A DNA stretch of 64,000 nucleotides from Aurantiochytrium sp. KH105 (lineage: Eukaryota; Sar; Bigyra; Thraustochytrida; Thraustochytriidae), in assembly GCA_003116975.1 (NCBI GenBank), contig BGKB01000111.1:62001-126000 (forward strand). The letters run 5' to 3'. Under the pieces are notes generated by a model that did no database searches, was not told the DNA's origin, and saw only the letters and a program-made list of their open reading frames with translations. This document shows positions 15,431-57,418 of the stretch, piece after piece. Position 1 is the first letter of the stretch, and each line of letters starts with the position of its first letter. Position numbers and translations under genes: made by a program.

Positions 15431-15726
15431 GGCTGCCGCCCGCCGCCCGCGTCTGCCCCTGCCGGCGCTCTCGAGCTTGCGGTTTTGCCTCGGCAGCGAC
15501 GGCGCCCCTTCGACGCGCCCAGTACAGGATACATCGGATGCCGCCAGCCCGATTCATTCCGTCAACCCGGAGCTCCTGGCGGCGCGCAAGCTGGCGGAGA
15601 GACGACGCGAGCGCGTCTGCTCGGCCTCGCGGGAACATCGCGACGCAGCGCGGCGTGGCGAGACGCAGCGTCGGGAAGCTGAACGGAGCTGCAGAGATCT
15701 GTGGCCATTGGTGGACGGCGACGGCG

Positions 15727-17889
15727 ATGGGCGGCGACGGAGCCAGGGCCCTGGGGCCCGGCGAACTCGAGGCGCTCGTCGAGCGCCTACCAGCCCTGGA
15801 CTGGAGCGATGTCGAGCGTGTCGAGGGTCTCGACGACCTCCTTCGTATTGAGGCGGTGAAGATGCTGCGCGAGGGCATGCTCTCGTGCGGGTTTCCGCGC
15901 ATCAGCACGGGTTGGATGGCAGGCGCGCCCATGGTTTCCATGACGCTGAAGCGCGCTCGCAAGGGTGATGCTGCGCAGGAGATGAATGCTGCTACGGCAA
16001 CAAACGATTCTATGCAAAATGTGGATGCGCGGAGAGCACTTGCAGAAGCGCTACAGATCATGTTATGTCGCGCGCCGGCGAACGCCCAACCCGAAGCCGT
16101 CCACGTGAACGCGCTCATCGAAGCCTTTGCGCGCCGCACGGGTGTGGCGCTCTGTAAACTTCAATGGAATGCTCGCTCGCAGGCGGTGCGAGCCGAGTTC
16201 GGGCCCCTGAAAATCGTTGACGATCGACTCTCGGGACGCAATTTGTGGCGCTATTCGCCGAGCTACCAGCGGTTCTTCACGAGCGAGCCTCCACGCGAAT
16301 ACCTTGGCAACGTTGCCGACATTGTGGCCAGCGAGGTGGTAGAGAGTGTGTGGCGAGGTGTGACTACAGCTCACTACGTGGTGGACGCGAATTTGAGGGA
16401 GGTGTTGCACGCGGCGCTGTTGGACTACGTCGCGGGCGGCATCGATGGCGCTGGAGAAGCGTTTGAACCATCGACACTTGCTGGTAAGACGCTCGCAATG
16501 TACCTGCATGGGACTGCGGGCGTGGGCAAGTCCACATTTGTGGAGCTCATCGGTCGCGCACTCGAAGGCGGCTTGCAAACGCACGTGAATCCCTCGCTCC
16601 GCGTCCACGTCGTCAAGGTTCCTGTGAACTCGATGCGACCGGAGCACTTGCAGCACATTCTGCGCATTCAGGGAATCTCAGACTGGTCTGTTGAACGCAT
16701 GGTGGAGCAAAGCATTGCCAAGGAGCATCTTGCCATTCTGCATCTGGAGGAACACCCTGAGGACCCAGCTGTGCAACGCCAAGTCTTTGATCTAGTCCAA
16801 GGAATGGTGGACCATTTGGTGAGCAAGTATCCGGATCGTCGCGGCCACATGATATTTGCATGGACCTCAAATTATACGCCATGTGAACACATGCAACCGA
16901 GTTTGCGTGTCGTGGTCCCTGTGCGAGCGCCTGATCACGACGCTCAATTTCGCTGGGCGCGCGAGATGCTCGAGGAAGCGTTGCACTCACGCTTCGCGGA
17001 GCAGGATAATCTGGTGGTCCATGTCGACGATGACGCGCGACCAGACTTTTGCTGTGACATGAGACCCCTCAATAGCTGGTGGAGGTCCGTGAGCTTTTTC
17101 GCGGCGGAGCTTGTTGCAGACCTTGCCGGGCGCAAGGCTTCCGGGTCAGCCTCAATGACAATTTGCGTGAAGAGTGATGACTCAGCTGTTGAGGGCCACA
17201 GCGCTTTGCAGGTTGTGGCAAGCGATGGCGCACAGACGGAGGCTCGTGTGAAGCTTTCAAGTGTGGACAGTTTCTTTTTCTGCCCGGTGACACTCTCGCC
17301 TTTGCAAGCCGTGTTGCAAATGGGTTTGCGAGGATTTTGCACCCCGACTGTCGTGCTTGTCGATCAAAGTTCGGAAGATGACGACAAGGGTGAGTCCGGC
17401 ACAGAGCACTTGACGTCGCTTCGCGAAGCACTCTGTGCTGAGGCGCGTGCAGCCCCGGTAAATGAGGACGTTCATCTTCGATGGCGTAACCTCGGGATCC
17501 TTGCGGACGAGCAAGACAAGGAGAAGATTTACGGCGATGCAAGCGAGATCCGCGGTGGCTTGTATCAGTTCATTGACGACACGAACAATCCGAATGTGCG
17601 CGTGAGCGACGTTGTTGGAGACTGTTTGCTCTGTGGGAGCGAACGAGCCTGCGTTGCTCGAAGCAGAAAGCAGGGCCAGCCTGCCTGCGTGCGTGTGGCG
17701 GCGGTCGCGGCAAAGGTGACCCGTGTGGGGCAGTTTATGCTTCGGGAGCTTCTTGAGACAAGTGCGCGGTCGCGCACGCACCGTTTTAGCGTGAGCAAGC
17801 GGCACGTGTTCTTCTTTCTCGTCGCTGTTCCGGGCGAGCCCGTTTCAGAGCAGACGCGCTCACGGGCACACCTCGTGATCAAGGCGTAA
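15727..17889 (+). CDS. AAA+-like P-loop ATPase of unknown family
   Basis: A 720-residue protein that I do not recognise beyond its ATPase core. The frame opens at 15538, but the preceding 63 codons are Arg/Ser-rich and unlike a domain, so I chose the Met at 15727. Residues about 258-272 contain a Walker A loop (GTAGVGKST, 262-270) after a hydrophobic strand. A plausible Walker B, LAILHLEE, follows near residue 335, and AWTSNY near residue 380 has the position and Asn expected of sensor 1, which argues for AAA+. The N-terminal 250 residues are alpha-helical with no motif. The C-terminal 300 residues are mixed and include a small CLLCGSERAC cysteine group. No membrane segment is present. The family assignment is inference. 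Confidence 0.75.
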   Translation: MGGDGARALGPGELEALVERLPALDWSDVERVEGLDDLLRIEAVKMLREGMLSCGFPRISTGWMAGAPMVSMTLKRARKGDAAQEMNAATATNDSMQNVDARRALAEALQIMLCRAPANAQPEAVHVNALIEAFARRTGVALCKLQWNARSQAVRAEFGPLKIVDDRLSGRNLWRYSPSYQRFFTSEPPREYLGNVADIVASEVVESVWRGVTTAHYVVDANLREVLHAALLDYVAGGIDGAGEAFEPSTLAGKTLAMYLHGTAGVGKSTFVELIGRALEGGLQTHVNPSLRVHVVKVPVNSMRPEHLQHILRIQGISDWSVERMVEQSIAKEHLAILHLEEHPEDPAVQRQVFDLVQGMVDHLVSKYPDRRGHMIFAWTSNYTPCEHMQPSLRVVVPVRAPDHDAQFRWAREMLEEALHSRFAEQDNLVVHVDDDARPDFCCDMRPLNSWWRSVSFFAAELVADLAGRKASGSASMTICVKSDDSAVEGHSALQVVASDGAQTEARVKLSSVDSFFFCPVTLSPLQAVLQMGLRGFCTPTVVLVDQSSEDDDKGESGTEHLTSLREALCAEARAAPVNEDVHLRWRNLGILADEQDKEKIYGDASEIRGGLYQFIDDTNNPNVRVSDVVGDCLLCGSERACVARSRKQGQPACVRVAAVAAKVTRVGQFMLRELLETSARSRTHRFSVSKRHVFFFLVAVPGEPVSEQTRSRAHLVIKA

Positions 17890-35593: not shown

Positions 35594-38500
35594 TTACTCA
35601 AGTTTGCGACGTTTGTTGCTCTTATTAGAGTGGCCAGAAGGAAACGGCGGTGGAATAAAGTCGACTTCCACCAGAAATTGACTGATGAGCGGTACTCGTA
35701 TGAAGATGTCGCGGATTTCCGCTCTCGCAGCCACGATGCGATCCTGAAACTTAGCGATCCTTTGAAGCTTTGCGATCACATGCGGAGATGCTTCGCCGTC
35801 CGCTGAAATCGTGCTCGAAGAAGCAGTCCCAGAGCTCAGAGCGATTCCATCGTGTGGTGGCCGCAACTCCTCAAAAGCTGACATGAGACAGATGCGAGAG
35901 CAAATATATAAAGTGAATCTCATCTCCAACAGACTTTTTTCCAGGACTTGCAGCTGGGCACGCAACTTTGCCATCGTTGCGTTGAGGCGAAAGTGATACT
36001 CCATGACATCTGCCCAGGGGTTCATCACTTCCTCTCCGTCTTCATCATCGTCTTCCTCGTCCTCGTTCGCCATGTCGGCGAACATACCCATTCCCAGGAA
36101 TTCGACGTCCCCGGTAACCATGAAATTCGCTTCCAGGGCAGAAGAAAGTGCTTCGATCCCGACGCGACCCATATTTTTGAAGTTCAAGCTGTGCAAAGAC
36201 GGTGCAAGTCAGTCGAAGGGTAAGAAAATGAGAGAAGAGCGCGTGCCGTGCGAGGGAAAAGAATAGAAGAAGAAGAAGAAGAAGAAAAACGTACCCTATC
36301 TGTGTCAATGTTTTGCTGCGGCGGAGCAAGTTGGCCAACGCGAGGGCTCCCTCGTCGGTGACTGTCACATTGTTGACACTGCGCGAGAGTAAATACAAAT
36401 GTTGCGCGGACAACCATTGCCGAACCGTTAGTCAAACAACGCACATAGCTGGTTGCATGATTGTCCGATGGTGACGTACCTGAACTCTCGTGCGTAAGGA
36501 CTCTCGATAAGGGCATTTGCAAGTGCCGTCACGCCGCGATCCGTAAGCGACGTTGCAAACATGCTGCGCGTCACAAAATCAATGGTGCGCGGGCGAAGAC
36601 GTCAGTGACTTGGAACAAAGCACTTGGTAGTCTCTCGCGACCGCGATCATGTGAAAAACGTACTCGATCACCCGCAAACTTCCGAGCCGGCCGGCGACGG
36701 CTAGCGCACCGGCGTCTCCTACATTTTTGTTGTTTCCGAGCCTGTCAGCGATTTGAATTCAGCGATTTGTTAGGTTGCCGATCAAGCGATTTTGAATGAT
36801 AACTCTCTTTCATCATTTCTGAGACAACGTACAAGAGTGCTTGAAGTGTTCCGAGGCCTTCCGCGAGACCTTGCGTGCCCACTTCACCGATGTGGTTGTA
36901 CCAGAGACTATGTTGAAGCGAAAGTGCGTCGGTCAGAGCTCGTGCATATGGGAGATGATATTGTGACACTGAAGCGCAGCGTCAACGTACATGAGATCTT
37001 GAAGGACTTTGTTCGTTTTCAGGCAAGCACCGAGCGCGCAGGCTCCAGCATCCCCGATTTGGTTGTCCCCAAGACTGAGAATATATCGTATAAGCACGGC
37101 ACAGCACAGCGCAGCATGAAAGGTCAGCTTCTGGTTCTCAACTTGCGTAGATGTTGTGGAGAAAGGTAAAACGTACTCGATAATCCTTAAGCGTGGGTGA
37201 GTCCCGAGTCCGCGGCTCAACGCCGCGGCGCCAGCATCGCCTAATTCATTCTCGCCCAATCTGTCTCGCAGAATTTGATTGCGTCAGTCAGTGAAACTTG
37301 ATCGCGAAAGAGGGCGGCCACTTCGTTAGAAAAACGTACAAAAGCTTCTCCAAAGTTGTGTTTTGAGCGAGCCCAGCGCCCAGTGCGTTGGCACCTTCTG
37401 CGCCAATTTTGTTGTGCTTCAAACTGCAGGTTATTGGATCAGGTACGGAACGGTCAGTCAAACGTGCTTCGAAAAAATCGCGTGACGTAGGCGCACTTAC
37501 TTGAGCAAAACAAGATGACGAGTTGCAGCGAGCCCTGTGGCAATGCAAGCGGCACCGTGATTGCCAAGCCCGCATTCGTGCAAGCTGCGAGAGAAGAAAG
37601 AGATACATAAAGAGAACATGTTAGAGGAAGAGGCGTTTTTACTTCTATTCCCCCCCCTCTCTTTCCGTGAATCGGCCGAGTTCAACTTACTTGAGTTGTT
37701 GCAGCCTATTAGAATTCATTATTGTCGTGAGGCTGTTGATACCAGCTACATTTGGATTCAGGCTACATAGACTGCGAGAGCAAAGGCACATGGATGTTAA
37801 CGTGAGAGCGCGAAGAACAATTTGTCGCAAGCACAGAAAACGTACTTGAGGTATTCGAGAGAAGGATGCTCTCCGGCGCTCTTACACAAAGCGGCAAAGC
37901 CTTCGTCACTAATTGGGTTTTTCCAAAGTCTATGAGCATCGGAAAATTGTTAGTTTGTGTGCGTGTATACGAAAGAGAAGAACGGCCGGCACTCGCATTT
38001 AAAGAGGACTTGTCCGGAAAAACGTACTCTAATCGTAAAAGACGAGGGTGGCGCAGCACGCCATCTGCGAGCGTCTGTGCGCCCGCGTTATCGATGTTGT
38101 TTCGCACAAGTCTGGACACAGTGGCGCTGGTTAGTAAAACTATGCTCATTGCGTGGGGCAAAGGGCAAGGAAAGGGTGAACGGGTGCTGCGGCGGTGTAC
38201 GTACACGAACTCTTCGAGAGACTCATTATGCTCCAGAAAGAGATCCACAAGAGTCATGGCGTGCAGTCTGTTGTTTGTCAAGCTTTGAATTTATCGCGAA
38301 GGAATGAGTTGTCAGCACATGGACGATCTTGAAATAAGAGGCAACAGGGTTGCCTACGAATACCTTTCGCTCGACTTACTCTAGCACGCGCAAGTTCTCG
38401 CAACTGCTCAGGGCATCGTACAGGCGCGCGGCAGCGGCATCGTCGAGTCCTAATTTCTCAAGTCTGTGTACAGATATTCCAAATAATGGAAGTCAGCATT

Positions 38501-40051
38501 TTTGTGCACGAGAGTTCGGGTTCATAGCATTTTGTGAAGATAAATCAAACATGCAAGGTCGGGTATTAAGGGGTACGTACCGTAACGTTTTCAGGCTTTG
38601 ATTTGCGCGGAAAGAGTCGAAGAGGAGCTGCGTCACAGGATGACAGACAACTTCGTAATTCGGTGTTCCTTGGCACGAAAGGCTTCTCATGAAGAAATCG
38701 ACCAAAAGCGAGGAGAAATGGGTATACAGTCACGTTAGTTCGCACAGCGAGTCACGACTTTTGTGCTGTCAAGAAGCTGCTTTCATGGAAGAGTATCATC
38801 ATACGTACTAGAGCTCTCGGAGCGAGGTTGAGTGTGTGATGCCTCGAGCCAGATGAGGCAGACCTTCTATGCCAAGCTTGCAGCAATCGACTCTGTGCGG
38901 CCGTGGAAGGATATGAGGTGAGCATCTGATTCATTGCGAGTGTGCGGGGAGAAGGAGTTGATCGACAGAGAGTCAAAGCAAAGGGGGCTGAGATGAATGG
39001 GACTGACTGTCTGATGGAAACTTACTCCAGGACACGAAGGGACGTTGAACTCTGCAAAAGGTCTCCAAGGGCCTTCCCGCCGATGTCACCTGCTGTTTCT
39101 CCACGCAAGCTGTAGAAAAGCCAGCAAGTCGTGGGCAACGAAAGATTAGTGAAGGAGTCAGTAAGAACTGAGCGGGCTCGTAACGTTTGGGGCCCGGTCT
39201 GGTCTACCTTGCCGAGGACTGAAGTTTGAGTTCTTTTGGCACTTACGAGAGTTTTTGCAGCATTGGGAAAGACTCGAGCGTCGATGCGACCGCCGCGACA
39301 TGTTCGGCGAGGAGATTATTTTGATCAAGACTGCGCAGGAAGCGTGTTATGTTTTCGCTGTGTCAGTTCTTGCCGCCGGCACAACAAAAGGAGGGTCGAA
39401 ACGATCCGAAGCGAAGCGACGCGAGGTCGGTCTCCGCTGATGTGCGCAAGAAGAGGATTCTGCTTTATTGACGTACCCGATCTCCCGGACTGAGAGAGCC
39501 TTTCTCACTTCGGCTTCGATTTCGTCGACGGAATTCGTCACGAGCTTCACCGTGGTGACCCTTTCGCTCAGCTCGGTGGTGTCTGGGAAAAGGTTGGAGT
39601 TGGTGACCCTGCGAGGATGCTCTTTCTCTGTCAGCTAGATTCGGCCCATCTCCTCGTGTGCTCTGCGGTACATATCACCACAGATAGGAAGCGAAACCTA
39701 CTTCACGGTCTTGAGAGTTTTCCCAAGTGCTCGAAAAACCTGTGCCAGCTCGGGCGCCGCGAGGTTCCCGTGTATCCTGCATCCGCAAGGCCGCCAGGCA
39801 AGGCCGTCAGCTCTCCCGCTCCTGCGTCGGCCCCTCCTCCCTCCCTCCCTCCCTCCCTCCCTCCCTGGGCGAGCTCCTCGCCGCTTACACAATCAACTCG
39901 CAGACGCGCACGTGCGCTGCACGAAGCCCGGCCCCCTCGATCGAGCGCCCTGTCCCCTCGCCCGCGCTCCGCACCGCGCCCTCGGCGCCTTCCTCTCCCT
40001 CCCGCCCACGTACCAGACCTCCTCGCCGCCGCGCAGCACCTCGTGCGCCAT
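35594..40051 (-). CDS. 21-exon leucine-rich repeat protein (ribonuclease-inhibitor/NLR type)
   Basis: Spliced protein of 753 residues. Exons (transcript order, minus strand): 40014-40051, 39702-39776, 39477-39608, 39247-39330, 39026-39109, 38809-38892, 38581-38682, 38380-38463, 38205-38282, 38028-38111, 37846-37929, 37691-37771, 37501-37584, 37340-37423, 37177-37260, 36991-37074, 36833-36907, 36664-36741, 36480-36563, 36295-36378, 35594-36188. Every junction is GT-AG and phase 2, and the frame stays open throughout. Exons 4-20 each encode one 28-residue RI-type LRR of the form LxxNxIGDxGAxALAxxLxxxxxLxxL; most are exactly 84 nt. The last exon adds an acidic segment (EDEEDDDEDGEE), a helical region and a Lys/Arg-rich end (NKSNKRRKLE) resembling a nuclear signal. 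No NACHT, kinase or membrane domain is present, so function is unknown beyond protein binding. Exon 1 and its weak acceptor are the least certain part. Confidence 0.85.
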
Positions 40052-51805: not shown

Positions 51806-54028
51806 ATGACCACCCTTAAGGATGCTGCACGCACGGCGTGCAAGCTTCTCGCTCTTCTCGCCGCCTGGGCTTGCGCTTCGTACGGCATCGTTGTTGTACT
51901 TTGGTCTGAAGACAAGAGTGTCACGGAGAAAGCCGGAGAAGTATTCGAGATCGAACCCATGCGTTCCACGCAGTCGTACTTTGCCGCGGCTCTCGTTGGC
52001 ATCATGACTGCCGTGGGCGCCGCCTTCACTGCAATCTATCTGCATCTGCATCACCCCAAGCCGGGCAAGGGGGCTGGCTGGCGCCGTCTTTCGCTCATGG
52101 CATGGAAAACTGTTGACGTGCCGTTCATGGGACGTCTTGCCGTCATCGAGATCTTTTTGCTTCTTCTCTGGGTTGGCCTTCAATGCATGACCATGTACCA
52201 TTTCTACTTGAACTGGGTTGACAGAATGCTCAGCAGAGGCCGTGAATACACCCTCAAGTTGAAATTCTTCGGTATCTGCCGCATGTTTGGAGCCGGTCTC
52301 GGAGTCAACCTTGCGTTTTTCATGATCCCTGTTTCCAAGCACTCGTTTTGGCTCGAGCTCGCGGATGTCGGCTTTGAGCGCGCGGTTCGGATTCACCGCT
52401 GGCTCGGCGTGCTTGTTATCGTCATGTCCCTCGGTCACCTTTTTCTGGGCATCGCCACCTACGTAGAAGACAGCAACCTCTTTTGGTGCATGGGTTGGAC
52501 GTCCGAACAACCAGATGAGACGCTTTGCAGGCCCAAGCTTGTCAAGATCAACATTTACGGCGAAGTGGCAATTGCAGGAGGCATTCTGATTGGGATCACC
52601 TCCTTTCCCATTGTACGCCGCTACTCGTATCAGCTCTTTTACTACTCGCATCTCATTGGCGCTTTCCTCTTTTTCGCCTTTGGAATTGTGCACGACAAGA
52701 ACACCTTTTACTATCTCTTTCCAGGCATCGTCACCTACGCCGTCGACAAGGTCATCTCGACCGGTCGTCGCGCTCGCTCTTGCAGTCTTTTGCATGCTAG
52801 CGTCAACGCCGACACCGCCTGCACCAAGCTCGAGGTAGCCGTGGCGCACGACACTCCGTTGCCTCGCCAGGGTCACTGGTACCATATCAACATCAAGGAA
52901 GCCTCTGCGCTCGAGTGGCACCCCATGAGCGTCGCGGAAACAAACGAGCAGGCCCACTCCATCACCTTTTACATTCGCCACACCGGAAACTGGTCCACGC
53001 GTGTGGGCGAGGTCGCATCCAGCCGTGAGGGCAACGAGCTAACGGTCAGACTTGACGGCCCCTTTGGTGGTACCCACACGGATAAGAGTGGGTACATGGC
53101 TAACGACGCAGCAGCCTTCGTCTCGGGTGGTATCGGAATTACAGCTCACCTTCTCGGCGCCAAGGCCGCGATTGATTCCGGGGCCTTTCGTCATGTGGCG
53201 CTGCGCTGGTTCGTCACGAGCCGCGCGTTTGTTTCACAGCATGCGCACTCTCTCAAGTATCTGGCCGACAAGGGTGCTGACGTTCACGTGTACGTCACGC
53301 GCGACGCCATTGCGGATGAAGGGGCCGTGTCTCAACCTTCGCACGTGTGGAACTTTGACGGCGAAAGCGGGAAACTTCGCCGGTTCTCGACGACCTTTAG
53401 CTCGCCCTTGGCCAAGTGCTCTATGTCGGCTGCGGCCGCAGTTGCCTTTATTTGGGGCATGTGGAAAACTGCCGTCTGGCTTGACAAGGACGCACAGAGT
53501 GAACTGACCCTTGGCGCGAACCGCGGTGCTGCGCTGGCGTTTTCGGTCCTTGCTTGTTTCGCTGGCGCTTTGATTGTCGCTGTCGTTACAATTATCGTCA
53601 ACTTTGGTCTCTCCAAAATGGGCGCTTCTCGCGCGCCTTCGCCGCAGGCCAAGCCTGTCGCCAAGGCAGCTGCGGGTTTTGAGGGTCCCGAACTCGAACG
53701 CGCGAGCACCCATGCGTCTTCGGAGGATTCCTCCGAGGCATCGTCTCAGGATGGGGAACTTGCCATTCGGGATGTCTCCGAGATGTACGTCAAGTCCGTT
53801 TTCGACATTGAAGACTTGGTCTCGCAGGGCAAGCCTTCTCTGGACGAAGTGATGGCGACGCTTGCGGAGACTATTGCCGTGAAGACTTCAGGCAGTCAGG
53901 TTCACAATGCTGGCGTCACCATTTGCGGGCCTTGTGCTCTTGTGGACGGTGTCGTGGACGCTGCCAAGGCTGCTAACGCCAAGGGCAACGTACGCTTCAT
54001 CATTGACGAAGAGGAGTACGCCTTTTAA
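51806..54028 (+). CDS. Ferric reductase/NADPH oxidase-like membrane flavocytochrome, paralog 1
   Basis: Transmembrane electron carrier of 740 residues moving electrons from NADPH via FAD and two hemes to an acceptor such as Fe3+ or O2. Heme ligands fit H197/H211 and H282/H296; both pairs are 14 apart, the ferric-reductase spacing. Helices lie near residues 12-32, 57-80, 110-130, 155-175, 195-218, 252-270 and 280-300. The FAD site is HPMSVAET (372-379), and the pyridine-nucleotide loops are DGPFGG (417-422) and SGGIGIT (440-446). The closing elements GKPSLDEV and ICGPCALV lie near 675-705, and the protein ends EEEYAF. Two more hydrophobic helices (about 538-559 and 573-602) interrupt the nucleotide lobe. 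No EF-hands are present. Start context is AACAATGACC. Paralog 2 follows 1.2 kb downstream. Confidence 0.93.
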   Translation: MTTLKDAARTACKLLALLAAWACASYGIVVVLWSEDKSVTEKAGEVFEIEPMRSTQSYFAAALVGIMTAVGAAFTAIYLHLHHPKPGKGAGWRRLSLMAWKTVDVPFMGRLAVIEIFLLLLWVGLQCMTMYHFYLNWVDRMLSRGREYTLKLKFFGICRMFGAGLGVNLAFFMIPVSKHSFWLELADVGFERAVRIHRWLGVLVIVMSLGHLFLGIATYVEDSNLFWCMGWTSEQPDETLCRPKLVKINIYGEVAIAGGILIGITSFPIVRRYSYQLFYYSHLIGAFLFFAFGIVHDKNTFYYLFPGIVTYAVDKVISTGRRARSCSLLHASVNADTACTKLEVAVAHDTPLPRQGHWYHINIKEASALEWHPMSVAETNEQAHSITFYIRHTGNWSTRVGEVASSREGNELTVRLDGPFGGTHTDKSGYMANDAAAFVSGGIGITAHLLGAKAAIDSGAFRHVALRWFVTSRAFVSQHAHSLKYLADKGADVHVYVTRDAIADEGAVSQPSHVWNFDGESGKLRRFSTTFSSPLAKCSMSAAAAVAFIWGMWKTAVWLDKDAQSELTLGANRGAALAFSVLACFAGALIVAVVTIIVNFGLSKMGASRAPSPQAKPVAKAAAGFEGPELERASTHASSEDSSEASSQDGELAIRDVSEMYVKSVFDIEDLVSQGKPSLDEVMATLAETIAVKTSGSQVHNAGVTICGPCALVDGVVDAAKAANAKGNVRFIIDEEEYAF

Positions 54029-55228
54029 AAAGCAGAAGCAAGGTCCCCGCGACAATACAATTCAAGCCACTCCATTTGCTTGCTCAACCGGTTGACTGCT
54101 TGCTCGATCGATTGCTTGCCTGCAAAAGCGCTGCTTGCTTACTTGCTTACTGAAAGTGTTCAAGAGCTCTTTTCAAAAACTCCGAATCCACCTCTCAGAA
54201 GCAAGGCTTTCTCTACCACGTGCAATTTTTATTCCAATTCAGAAATAACAGCATTTTCATCATGTCTGCATCCTATTTGGGCCTAGAGGCCTACCTCGTC
54301 TTTTATTTTGTTCTTTCTGTGCCATCCTGAATGAAGCCGTGCCAACCTAGAAAAGGGTAAAAGCAAGCGGCGTCAGCAGCTTTCCCTTAAACCCTCTACG
54401 TAGTACTACAACGGCGTGCCGGTCAGCCTGAACCCGACCCTGCCCAGCATTCCCACCGACGTCGCCCGTATTTCTCTCTTTCGATGTCTCCAGCAAATCT
54501 CGTCGTCGACGGCCGCAGGGTTCAGGGCCTTCCTTCGCGCATCCCGTATTCGCTGCGCTGTGGCCCACAAGCCGCTCGGGCAGCACGCGCGGGCACGCGA
54601 AGCACACGTGCGGGCGCTCTTGTGGGGCAGCTGTGGGTCACCCCCCGCCACGCAAAGTCGGGCGATCGAGGAAGAGCACGAGCGCATCGACTGCAGCTGG
54701 CTGGCCGCAGACCTCGAGCGCCGCGCCCTCGCTCGCCCGCGAGGGAGGGAGGAAGGGCCGCTCGCGAGGGCCGAGCGTCGCGCTCGCTCGCGATCATATC
54801 CTCGGGGCCCCTTCTACGCGCGTGCGAGGCGCGTGCACTCGCGAGGCGAGGCGAGGGCATTCACCGCGGAGCCTCGACAGGACGGCGCCGCTCGCGACCT
54901 CCACGCGCACGGCGCGTGCTAGGAGGAGCGGGCTCGCGGCCGTGCTTGAGCCGCCACGCTCCGCCCTGCTCCGCCGCGCCCTGCACGCCGCCTGGATTCG
55001 CTGCAAGGTAGGAGCGCTGGCCGCGGCATGCTGCAAAGCGGGAAAGGAGGGTGCCACGACCTTGAGCTCGAGCTCCCGGAGAAGAACTACAAGCAGCAGA
55101 CGCTTCCCAGGACGGCCAACTTTGGAACGTTTGACAAAAAGGAAACCCCCTCTCGCGCAGAAATTGTGACGAGGGCGGCAAACGCGATTGTTCAAGGTCT
55201 TGAGGTGAGCGAGAAAAGTCACGCGAGT
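54029..55228. other. Intergenic region between the reductase paralogs
   Basis: About 1.2 kb. Two CCTAG/AGGCCTA copies lie at about 54280-54293. The frame of paralog 2 stays open back to 55028, so 55028-55228 might be translated; I treat it as 5' leader. The GC-rich part (54400-55000) holds spurious frames. I see no gene. Confidence 0.5.
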
Positions 55229-57418
55229 ATGGGGCTTGCGGCGAAGCTGCGCACGAGCGCGAACGCTGCGTTTTTGGTGGGTGCGTGGGCATGCGTGGCC
55301 CTTGGCGGCGCCTTTCTCATCTTTGAGAATGACAAGAGCTTTTCTCGAGTAATGTCGGAATACCTTGAAATCGAAGGATTGCACCATTCGGCGCTCGCCG
55401 TGGGTCTGTTGGTCGTCTTCACTGCATTCGGTGGTGTCTTTGTCGCTGGGCACCTGGCACTGCGCCGGTCAAAACCCGGTGCTGCGCGGTGTCGCCGATG
55501 CTCAACATGGACATGGCGCATGGTCGAAGTTCCGTTCTTTGGGCGCATGGCCCTTGCTGAGATCACGCTTATGCTGGCATGGATTCTACTTCAGTCCATT
55601 ACCATGATGCAGTACTTTATCAAATTAAAGGAGCACCATAGCTCTCACGGGGAAGGAATGACTACCAAGACTATTTTGATGGGCCTTTGCTGCATGTTCG
55701 GCATTGGCTTTGGTGTGAACCTGGCTGTTCTCATGCTCCCTGTCTCCAAACACTCGTTCTGGTTGGAGCTTCTCGACGTTGGATTTGAGCGTGCTGTCCG
55801 CGTTCACCGCTGGATTGGAGTCCTGGTCATGACTCTTATCGTGCTTCACGCGCTTTTCGCTGTGCTGACCTACATTCACGTGGAGAGCCTCGCGTACTGC
55901 ATGGGCTGGAGCAGCGTGTCACCAGGAGATGATGCGTACTGTCAACCTGTGCTCGTCAAAATCAATATCTACGGCGAGATCGCGTTTGCCGGAGGCATTC
56001 TTCTCAGCGTCACATCCCTGCCCGCGGTGCGACGCTTTTCCTACCAGCTATTCTACTACTCGCATGTAATTGGCGCGGTGTTATTTTTTGGGTTTGGCAT
56101 CATCCACTTTTCGTCGACATTGACATACTTTTTGCCCAGTCTCGCCACGTACGTTGCCGACAAAGTTATCTCGACATGGCGACGGGCGCGCTCTTGCTTG
56201 TTGCTGCATTACAGCGTCAATGACGAAATAGACTGCACCAAATTGGAGATCGCACTTGATCAAGACACGCCACTGCCTCGTCAGGGCCACTGGTACCACG
56301 TCAATGTCAAGGAAGCCTCCGTGCTTCAGTGGCACCCCATGAGTGTGGCCGAAACCAATGCTGAGGAGCACTCCATCGTTTTTTACATTCGGCACGACGG
56401 TGACTGGTCGAGTCGGCTCGGCAGTGTTGCTCGGGCTCGGGCGCTGCAGCAAGAAGGTCTCACAGTCCGTCTGGACGGCCCTTTCGGAGGAACGCACACG
56501 CGTCATAGTGGGTACATGAATAACGACGCGGCCGTCTTTGTCTGCGGCGGAATCGGCATCACAGCCCATGCGCTCGCTGTCGAAGCGGCCGTGGCGTCAG
56601 ACTGTTTCCAGCTCGTCGCGCTCCGCTGGTTTGTCACCAGAAAAGCCTTTTTGGATCAGCACACAGCCGTGCTTGAGCGACTTGCGGGCATGGGCGCCGA
56701 CGTTCAGGTACACATTACCCGTGGGGCCGACGTCGAACGCGAGGCAAGTTTGCAGCCTGCCACACGATGGTCGGAGTCATCATTATTGAGGAGGTCCAGG
56801 TGGCGCTACGCGACGAACCTGGACTCTGGCATTGCCAAAGCGATTGTAACTGCTGCCGCAGCTCTTTCGCTGGTGGGGGCCCTTCGCAATCAGGGCACCA
56901 AGAACCCTGGGCATCACCATCACGACCATACGCAGGAGAATTTTTTCCTCGAGCACGCCAAGAACTTGACTTTCATCGTTGGCATGTGTGTATTGATCAC
57001 AGTGGCCGTGGCCATCAAGCTTTCGATTGTAACAAAAGCGTTGCGTATTCTCTGCCCGGACAAGATGTTTCGAGCATGGACTCGCGTCGCCAAGAAGCTA
57101 AGTCTGAGTGACGCGGAGCTGGCGCTTACGTCTCCGGACCCGCTTGAGCGGCAACGATTTCTCATCGATGGCGGCTCCCTGCCGAGTACTCCCGCGTCAG
57201 GCGAGTTACTCTCTGTGAGCTATGGACGCCCACGACTCGAAGACGTTTTCGCCGAGCTCGCTTCAAACTTGGAGGAACGCTCCACTGGCATCCGTCTCGC
57301 TGGCGTCTCTCTTTGCGGCCCAGAGCGCCTTGTCAACGGGTCGATCCTGGCCGCAAACACTGTGTCGAATAATTCGACTGTATCCTTTATCATTGATGAG
57401 GAAGAGTACTCATTCTAA
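55229..57418 (+). CDS. Ferric reductase/NADPH oxidase-like membrane flavocytochrome, paralog 2
   Basis: Tandem paralog of the preceding gene with the same architecture, 729 residues from the Met at 55229. That Met aligns with the start of paralog 1 (MGLAAKLRTSANAAFLVGAW beside MTTLKDAARTACKLLALLAAW). The open frame begins 67 codons earlier, so a longer form is possible. Heme ligands correspond to H193/H207 and H279/H293. FAD motif HPMSVAET, DGPFGG and GGIGIT are all kept. The inserted hydrophobic pair in the nucleotide lobe is present, here with a histidine-rich loop (HHHHDH) between the two helices, a possible metal-binding feature absent from paralog 1. The end EEEYSF parallels EEEYAF. The substrate acceptor is not predictable. 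Confidence 0.92.
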   Translation: MGLAAKLRTSANAAFLVGAWACVALGGAFLIFENDKSFSRVMSEYLEIEGLHHSALAVGLLVVFTAFGGVFVAGHLALRRSKPGAARCRRCSTWTWRMVEVPFFGRMALAEITLMLAWILLQSITMMQYFIKLKEHHSSHGEGMTTKTILMGLCCMFGIGFGVNLAVLMLPVSKHSFWLELLDVGFERAVRVHRWIGVLVMTLIVLHALFAVLTYIHVESLAYCMGWSSVSPGDDAYCQPVLVKINIYGEIAFAGGILLSVTSLPAVRRFSYQLFYYSHVIGAVLFFGFGIIHFSSTLTYFLPSLATYVADKVISTWRRARSCLLLHYSVNDEIDCTKLEIALDQDTPLPRQGHWYHVNVKEASVLQWHPMSVAETNAEEHSIVFYIRHDGDWSSRLGSVARARALQQEGLTVRLDGPFGGTHTRHSGYMNNDAAVFVCGGIGITAHALAVEAAVASDCFQLVALRWFVTRKAFLDQHTAVLERLAGMGADVQVHITRGADVEREASLQPATRWSESSLLRRSRWRYATNLDSGIAKAIVTAAAALSLVGALRNQGTKNPGHHHHDHTQENFFLEHAKNLTFIVGMCVLITVAVAIKLSIVTKALRILCPDKMFRAWTRVAKKLSLSDAELALTSPDPLERQRFLIDGGSLPSTPASGELLSVSYGRPRLEDVFAELASNLEERSTGIRLAGVSLCGPERLVNGSILAANTVSNNSTVSFIIDEEEYSF

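Follow-up and report, generated by a model that had tools for sequence, protein, structure and literature searches.

Several groups of LRR genes are known in which each repeat is encoded by an exon of its own. In the human NOD/NLRC genes, an exon encodes a single 28-aa RI-type LRR, its border lies at a set position in the beta sheet and the reading frame is preserved (PMC6642158). Among the stramenopiles, brown algae possess LRR-ROCO genes with 72-bp phase-2 exons, one per LRR, for which both shuffling and splice variants are described, and the same account also gives them LRR-only genes with such 72-bp exons (PMC11378527). That account further names the gonadotrophin receptors, whose phase-2 exons hold one LRR each (PMC11378527). 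Tetrahymena species carry almost 50,000 exons with a length of exactly 90 bp, most of them flanked by phase-2 introns (PMC6564038).

The gene discussed here lies in a 64,000-nt stretch of DNA from the thraustochytrid Aurantiochytrium sp. KH105, referred to here as the window. It resembles the NOD/NLRC genes in its RI-type repeats, in the match of a 28-residue repeat to an 84-nt exon, in the preservation of frame and in an exon border inside the beta sheet; this last likeness holds at the level of the beta strand. The window gene differs from them in lacking NACHT or any signalling domain and in belonging to a protist genome. With the brown-algal LRR-ROCO genes it shares one LRR per exon, phase 2 and a stramenopile host, but its exons are mostly 84 nt rather than 72 bp, the LRR consensus is another one, Roc-COR is absent from it (and present at a separate locus, L037/L049) and no diversifying selection is seen between its two alleles. 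Tetrahymena offers another protist with tandem LRR exons of constant length and an extreme phase-2 bias; there, however, the exons are exactly 90 bp, occur in thousands of genes and are young and shuffling, whereas here they are mostly 84 nt, with no 90-nt exon in the window gene, are found in four genes and are equal in number between alleles. The gonadotrophin receptors likewise combine one LRR per exon with phase 2, but are receptor genes and, to our knowledge, unrelated to the window gene in domain content. Owing to the human, brown-algal and ciliate precedents, the layout itself is already known. At the level of titles and abstracts, the best-ranked literature matches contained no report of it in thraustochytrids; what is new here is a static 84-nt exon-per-repeat LRR example in this group.

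Gene structure and splice signals

The reconstructed gene runs on the minus strand from an ATG at 40051 to a stop codon at 35594. It comprises 21 exons with a total of 2262 nt (753 codons plus the stop), separated by 20 introns that are all GT...AG, all phase 2 and 74-237 nt long. These counts are identical to those of the first-pass annotation. The features, all on the minus strand, are listed below; the whole span rests on the rebuilt model and the allele match, and exons 1 to 20 on the reconstruction.

35594..40051, minus: whole coding span, 21-exon LRR gene, 753 codons
40014..40051, minus: exon 1, 38 nt, start codon (no substitution between alleles)
39702..39776, minus: exon 2, 75 nt, degenerate repeat-like (by eye)
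39477..39608, minus: exon 3, 132 nt, N-terminal region
39247..39330, minus: exon 4, LRR, 84 nt
39026..39109, minus: exon 5, LRR, 84 nt
38809..38892, minus: exon 6, LRR, 84 nt
38581..38682, minus: exon 7, LRR, 102 nt, AAG acceptor
38380..38463, minus: exon 8, LRR, 84 nt
38205..38282, minus: exon 9, LRR, 78 nt, AAG acceptor
38028..38111, minus: exon 10, LRR, 84 nt, in-frame alternative acceptor 38126 (parser)
37846..37929, minus: exon 11, LRR, 84 nt
37691..37771, minus: exon 12, LRR, 81 nt
37501..37584, minus: exon 13, LRR, 84 nt
37340..37423, minus: exon 14, LRR, 84 nt
37177..37260, minus: exon 15, LRR, 84 nt
36991..37074, minus: exon 16, LRR, 84 nt
36833..36907, minus: exon 17, LRR, 75 nt
36664..36741, minus: exon 18, LRR, 78 nt
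36480..36563, minus: exon 19, LRR, 84 nt
36295..36378, minus: exon 20, LRR, 84 nt
35594..36188, minus: exon 21, 595 nt, last LRR, acidic stretch, two predicted long helices, basic C-terminus, stop (PDB search, structure prediction)

Exons 4-20 each hold, by eye, a single RI-type LRR, with exons 7 and 12 among the degenerate ones, and 12 of the 17 measure exactly 84 nt, in agreement with the earlier description of one repeat per exon at 84 nt or a close variant. The introns that follow them split one and the same residue of the repeat in 17 of 17 cases, namely the x of LxxL[x]LxxN, which we take from established LRR structure to lie within the beta strand. The donor hexamer GTACGT or GTAAGT begins 19 of the 20 introns; across the window, the minus strand contains 36 of these hexamers, 19 of them inside the 4.5-kb gene, and the whole plus strand 11.

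A splice-signal and codon parser recovered the same exon chain except for the exon 10 acceptor and the 3' end, a recovery that is not independent support because its matrices were trained on this very gene. For exon 10 it preferred the acceptor 38126 over 38111 (99 nt instead of 84, with the frame kept), and at the 3' end it exchanged the stop for a further intron leading into 35330-35204. The residual doubts about the model concern exon 10, which possibly starts 15 nt earlier in frame, and the AAG acceptors at exons 7 and 9. A hidden intron within exon 21, where a polypyrimidine-like stretch lies near 35910, is not favoured, as the alleles carry no indel there. As an observation, the 21-exon gene predicted on genomic evidence is confirmed.

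The encoded protein

The protein carries the hallmark of RI-type LRRs, tandem repeats of ~28 residues with the pattern LxxLxLxxNxI..GaxxLa, and about 18 of these, counted by eye, make up its solenoid. A Pfam scan returned LRR families only (PF13516, E 6.3e-21), with no NACHT, Roc-COR or any effector domain; the sole NCBIfam match fell far under its cut-off, and no signal peptide is obvious by eye at the N-terminus. In a PDB search ribonuclease inhibitor matched at E 5.1e-25. Among the best 60 of 71 matches, the relatives include ribonuclease inhibitors, axonemal LRR proteins, LRR domains of NLRs and RanGAP, the last at repeat level only (E 1.7e-9), and their best stretches fall within residues 27-577. 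The axonemal RI-LRR proteins LRRC34, DRC5 and RSP15 resemble it in the solenoid, through the repeats. The two long helices of exon 21 are predicted with low confidence (mean pLDDT 59). For this exon no PDB relative was found below E 0.4 (best E 0.43) and none in viral contigs; the C-terminal domain resembles another LRR protein of the genome, L035, over 36 residues (E 0.012), and no other relative of it was identified.

Alleles, selection and age of the array

The assembly (76 Mb, 367 contigs) behaves as diploid. It contains a match to a PfaA-type PUFA synthase (E 1.4e-278, 930 bits against a family cut-off of 1010), which is consistent with a thraustochytrid without being proof of one; 11 of 14 control genomes also matched this family, none of them above the cut-off. 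A DNA search of the assembly with the LRR gene found one allele, C126 (93%); apart from it there were two short matches, 37 and 40 bases long, and no further DNA-level copy. The C126 allele has the same 21 exons, equal in number and lengths. Between alleles the exons differ by 90 substitutions in 2262 positions with 0 indel columns, and the introns by 159 substitutions in 2162 aligned bases with 78 gapped columns, a contrast with Fisher p values of 1.2e-6 for substitutions and 1.1e-24 for gaps, the latter overstated since gap columns are not independent events. The GT start and AG end are kept by 20 of 20 introns in both alleles. The lack of exon indels against 78 intron gap columns supports the gene model without recourse to RNA.

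Between the alleles dS is 0.105, dN 0.022 and omega 0.21 (0.19 for the LRR exons). The last-named whole-gene ratio falls between those of two neighbours, a GH31 gene (781 codons, part of the gene; omega 0.26, dS 0.057) and an AMP-binding gene (814 codons; omega 0.13, dS 0.054). Selection on the LRR gene is purifying. As to diversifying selection on concave sites, the comparison covers two alleles only, with the LRR-exon omega just given; the twelve 84-nt exons contain 10 amino-acid differences at scattered positions. The allelic dS of the LRR gene is slightly under twice that of these neighbours.

The first-pass annotation had raised the possibility of a recently expanded modular recognition gene. 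Both the modular layout and an allelic dS nearly twice the neighbours' values could be read as signs of such a gene evolving rapidly. The introns are nevertheless mutually unrelated: their best local score against one another is 16, below the shuffle 95th percentile of 17 (shuffle mean 14.5), and the best exon-exon score of 17 is barely above its own shuffle 95th percentile of 16. Recent duplication of exon-intron units is thus rejected. Because the introns show no relationship beyond shuffles and the alleles agree in exon number, recent expansion of the array finds no support; with equal exon lengths, an omega of 0.21 and the allele as the only DNA-level copy, a young recognition gene is highly improbable. 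Instead, the exon-per-repeat pattern looks old, conserved and static.

All 19 internal exons are symmetric, so that each could be skipped in frame, and 10 of the 190 possible skip junctions create a stop codon at the joint, the other 180 creating none. Retention of an intron brings in a stop for 16 of the 20 introns and none for four. The exon/repeat register and frame symmetry described at first pass are therefore real. Regulated skipping of symmetric exons might, on these grounds, yield a set of LRR isoforms with several binding specificities from one gene, and there are precedents in brown-algal LRR-ROCO genes (PMC11378527) and in human NLRP3, whose LRR isoforms are reported to arise by exon skipping (PMC6642158). 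Such regulation is nonetheless unlikely here, given that the donors are strong and uniform, that the two alleles give no diversifying signal and that no effector domain was found in the protein; the symmetry of the exons is a consequence of the repeat register and requires no selection for skipping.

Surroundings in the window

The rest of the window was parsed as ten overlapping segments that cover all of it. Outside the LRR gene 17 parsed frames exceeded the threshold, some of them overlapping each other on opposite strands. The statement that every other gene appears intronless largely holds: 13 of these have no intron, and the remaining four received one predicted intron each. These four introns may be genuine, their splice scores falling within the span of those in the LRR gene; one of the four frames sits inside a continuous 796-aa frame. 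As the parser was trained on the LRR gene, it may overlook introns whose splice signals differ. Pfam families were assigned to nine of the ten large window frames scanned (two WD40, GH31, AMP-binding, SSRP1, two ferric reductases, PDEase and MFS), leaving one without; a 783-codon open frame at 15538-17889 has no Pfam family at E 0.001. Two ferric-reductase-like genes lie adjacent on the plus strand, at 51806-54028 and 55028-57418.

LRR relatives in the same genome

With haplotypes counted apart, 99 LRR loci were obtained by merging result rows by hand (114 of 114; 19 of 118, giving 18 new loci and one known; and 6 new of 51). At 91 of them one match spanned 168 nt or more, equal to two repeats. 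Three of those 91 (C36, C54 and C117) are nevertheless parts of exon-per-repeat genes. The haplotype-level loci not seen with repeat-split exons accordingly number 88 of 99, some of them inspected as DNA. The other eight are the window gene's two alleles, C21/C68 and four loci in frames of 732-1407 aa. A further search, read by eye, showed no additional broken LRR locus. The searches score the best candidates only and find short exons poorly, and the count of broken LRR genes is for this reason a lower bound.

The layout is not confined to the window gene: at least three other loci of the genome share phase-2, ~84-nt LRR exons, making at least four such genes: the window gene, C21/C68, C54/C117 and C36/C17. 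C21/C68 has eight exons and C54/C117 has 15, with all seven and all 14 of their introns in phase 2. The latter gene includes exons of 165, 252 and 168 nt, close to or exactly two, three and two units, as expected if single introns had been lost. Of the 47 internal exons in the four genes, 29 measure exactly 84 nt; since their introns share one phase, every one of the 47 is necessarily a multiple of three. Projected onto the second allele by alignment, the exons of C21/C68 contain no gap column, and a single 3-nt gap falls in those of C54/C117. Separate parsing of the alleles gave exon 3 of C21/C68 as 51 vs 156 nt, and gave L050 and L049 differing 5' ends or extra tiny exons. The models of these three loci are accordingly provisional. 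Omega is 0.08 for C54, 0.27 for C21 and 0.44 for the LRR exons of C36.

Within this small set the window gene has the longest array. Among the ten proteins compared by BLASTP its best relative is the intronless L038 (28% over 503 aa, E 5e-47), with the exon-per-repeat L035, the C54 paralogue, just behind (28% over 475 aa, E 4e-44); since L038 is slightly ahead, its nearest relatives are not singled out by the presence of introns. The repeats of the window gene and L035 show no colinearity (permutation p 0.59). The comparison of introns across LRR genes is made within this genome alone, and fits loss as well as gain of introns.

If a once intronless LRR gene had acquired its introns independently of one another, at an identical position in every repeat, this would accord with the 88 of 99 loci not seen with repeat-split exons, with the mutually unrelated introns and with an intronless best relative, and the process might favour a sequence common to all repeats. 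The usual protosplice site is AG/G. It is found at 0 of the 20 junctions, only one exon ends in AG, all 17 of 17 repeats would need to be hit, and four genes agree in intron phase and in exon length, all of which makes insertion a rather improbable origin.

Roc-COR-TIR loci

The locus L037 (C36, 3799-8700) and its allele L049 (C17) encode LRR-Roc-COR-TIR, with phase-2 LRR exons of ~84 nt replacing WD40. Ten phase-2 introns precede a long exon that codes for Roc, COR-A and TIR. This exon carries a one-base difference between haplotypes, either a frame difference or an assembly error, which renders the model unreliable beyond exon 11. L037 lies near L045, a WD40-Roc-COR-TIR gene, and in all four such genes examined (L045, L046, L047 and L048) WD40, Roc, COR-A and TIR_2 occupy one continuous frame. 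Roc forms a large dispersed set in this genome: by hand count, with haplotypes apart, the best 150 of 381 candidates include at least 55 partial Roc matches in frames of at least 1000 aa. For other SAR species, e.g. Schizochytrium aggregatum, at most four ROCO genes per species are reported (PMC11378527).

At C36/C17 the LRR exons stand where the four other family members examined have WD40. It is conceivable, if doubtful, that the 84-nt phase-2 RI-LRR exon module, whose border inside the beta strand recalls the human NOD/NLRC exons, predates the split of animals and stramenopiles, and that in this lineage the few genes which escaped intron loss donate LRR exons to positions before Roc-COR-TIR effectors.

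Significance

The window gene is probably an old and static array of exon modules, that is, an ordinary spliced gene for a 753-residue intracellular RI-LRR protein, most likely a protein-binding scaffold. Its transcript would be spliced constitutively by the spliceosome to one main product, an RI-type LRR solenoid followed by an acidic helical C-terminal tail. The array most likely arose long ago through tandem duplication of an exon that encoded one repeat, was bounded by phase 2 at both ends and was cut at the same residue of LxxL[x]LxxN, and has since become static.

In animals, brown algae and ciliates, exon-per-repeat LRR genes are regarded as raw material from which immune receptors diversify. 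Here a single genome contains LRR arrays that are split by an intron at each repeat, at part of the repeats or not at all, most relatives being found in continuous frames, and so provides an internal control; the same genome also holds a locus with such LRR exons ahead of a Roc-COR-TIR effector. Together, these genes make accessible the question of whether LRR introns persist because they serve splicing or shuffling, or have merely not been lost yet.
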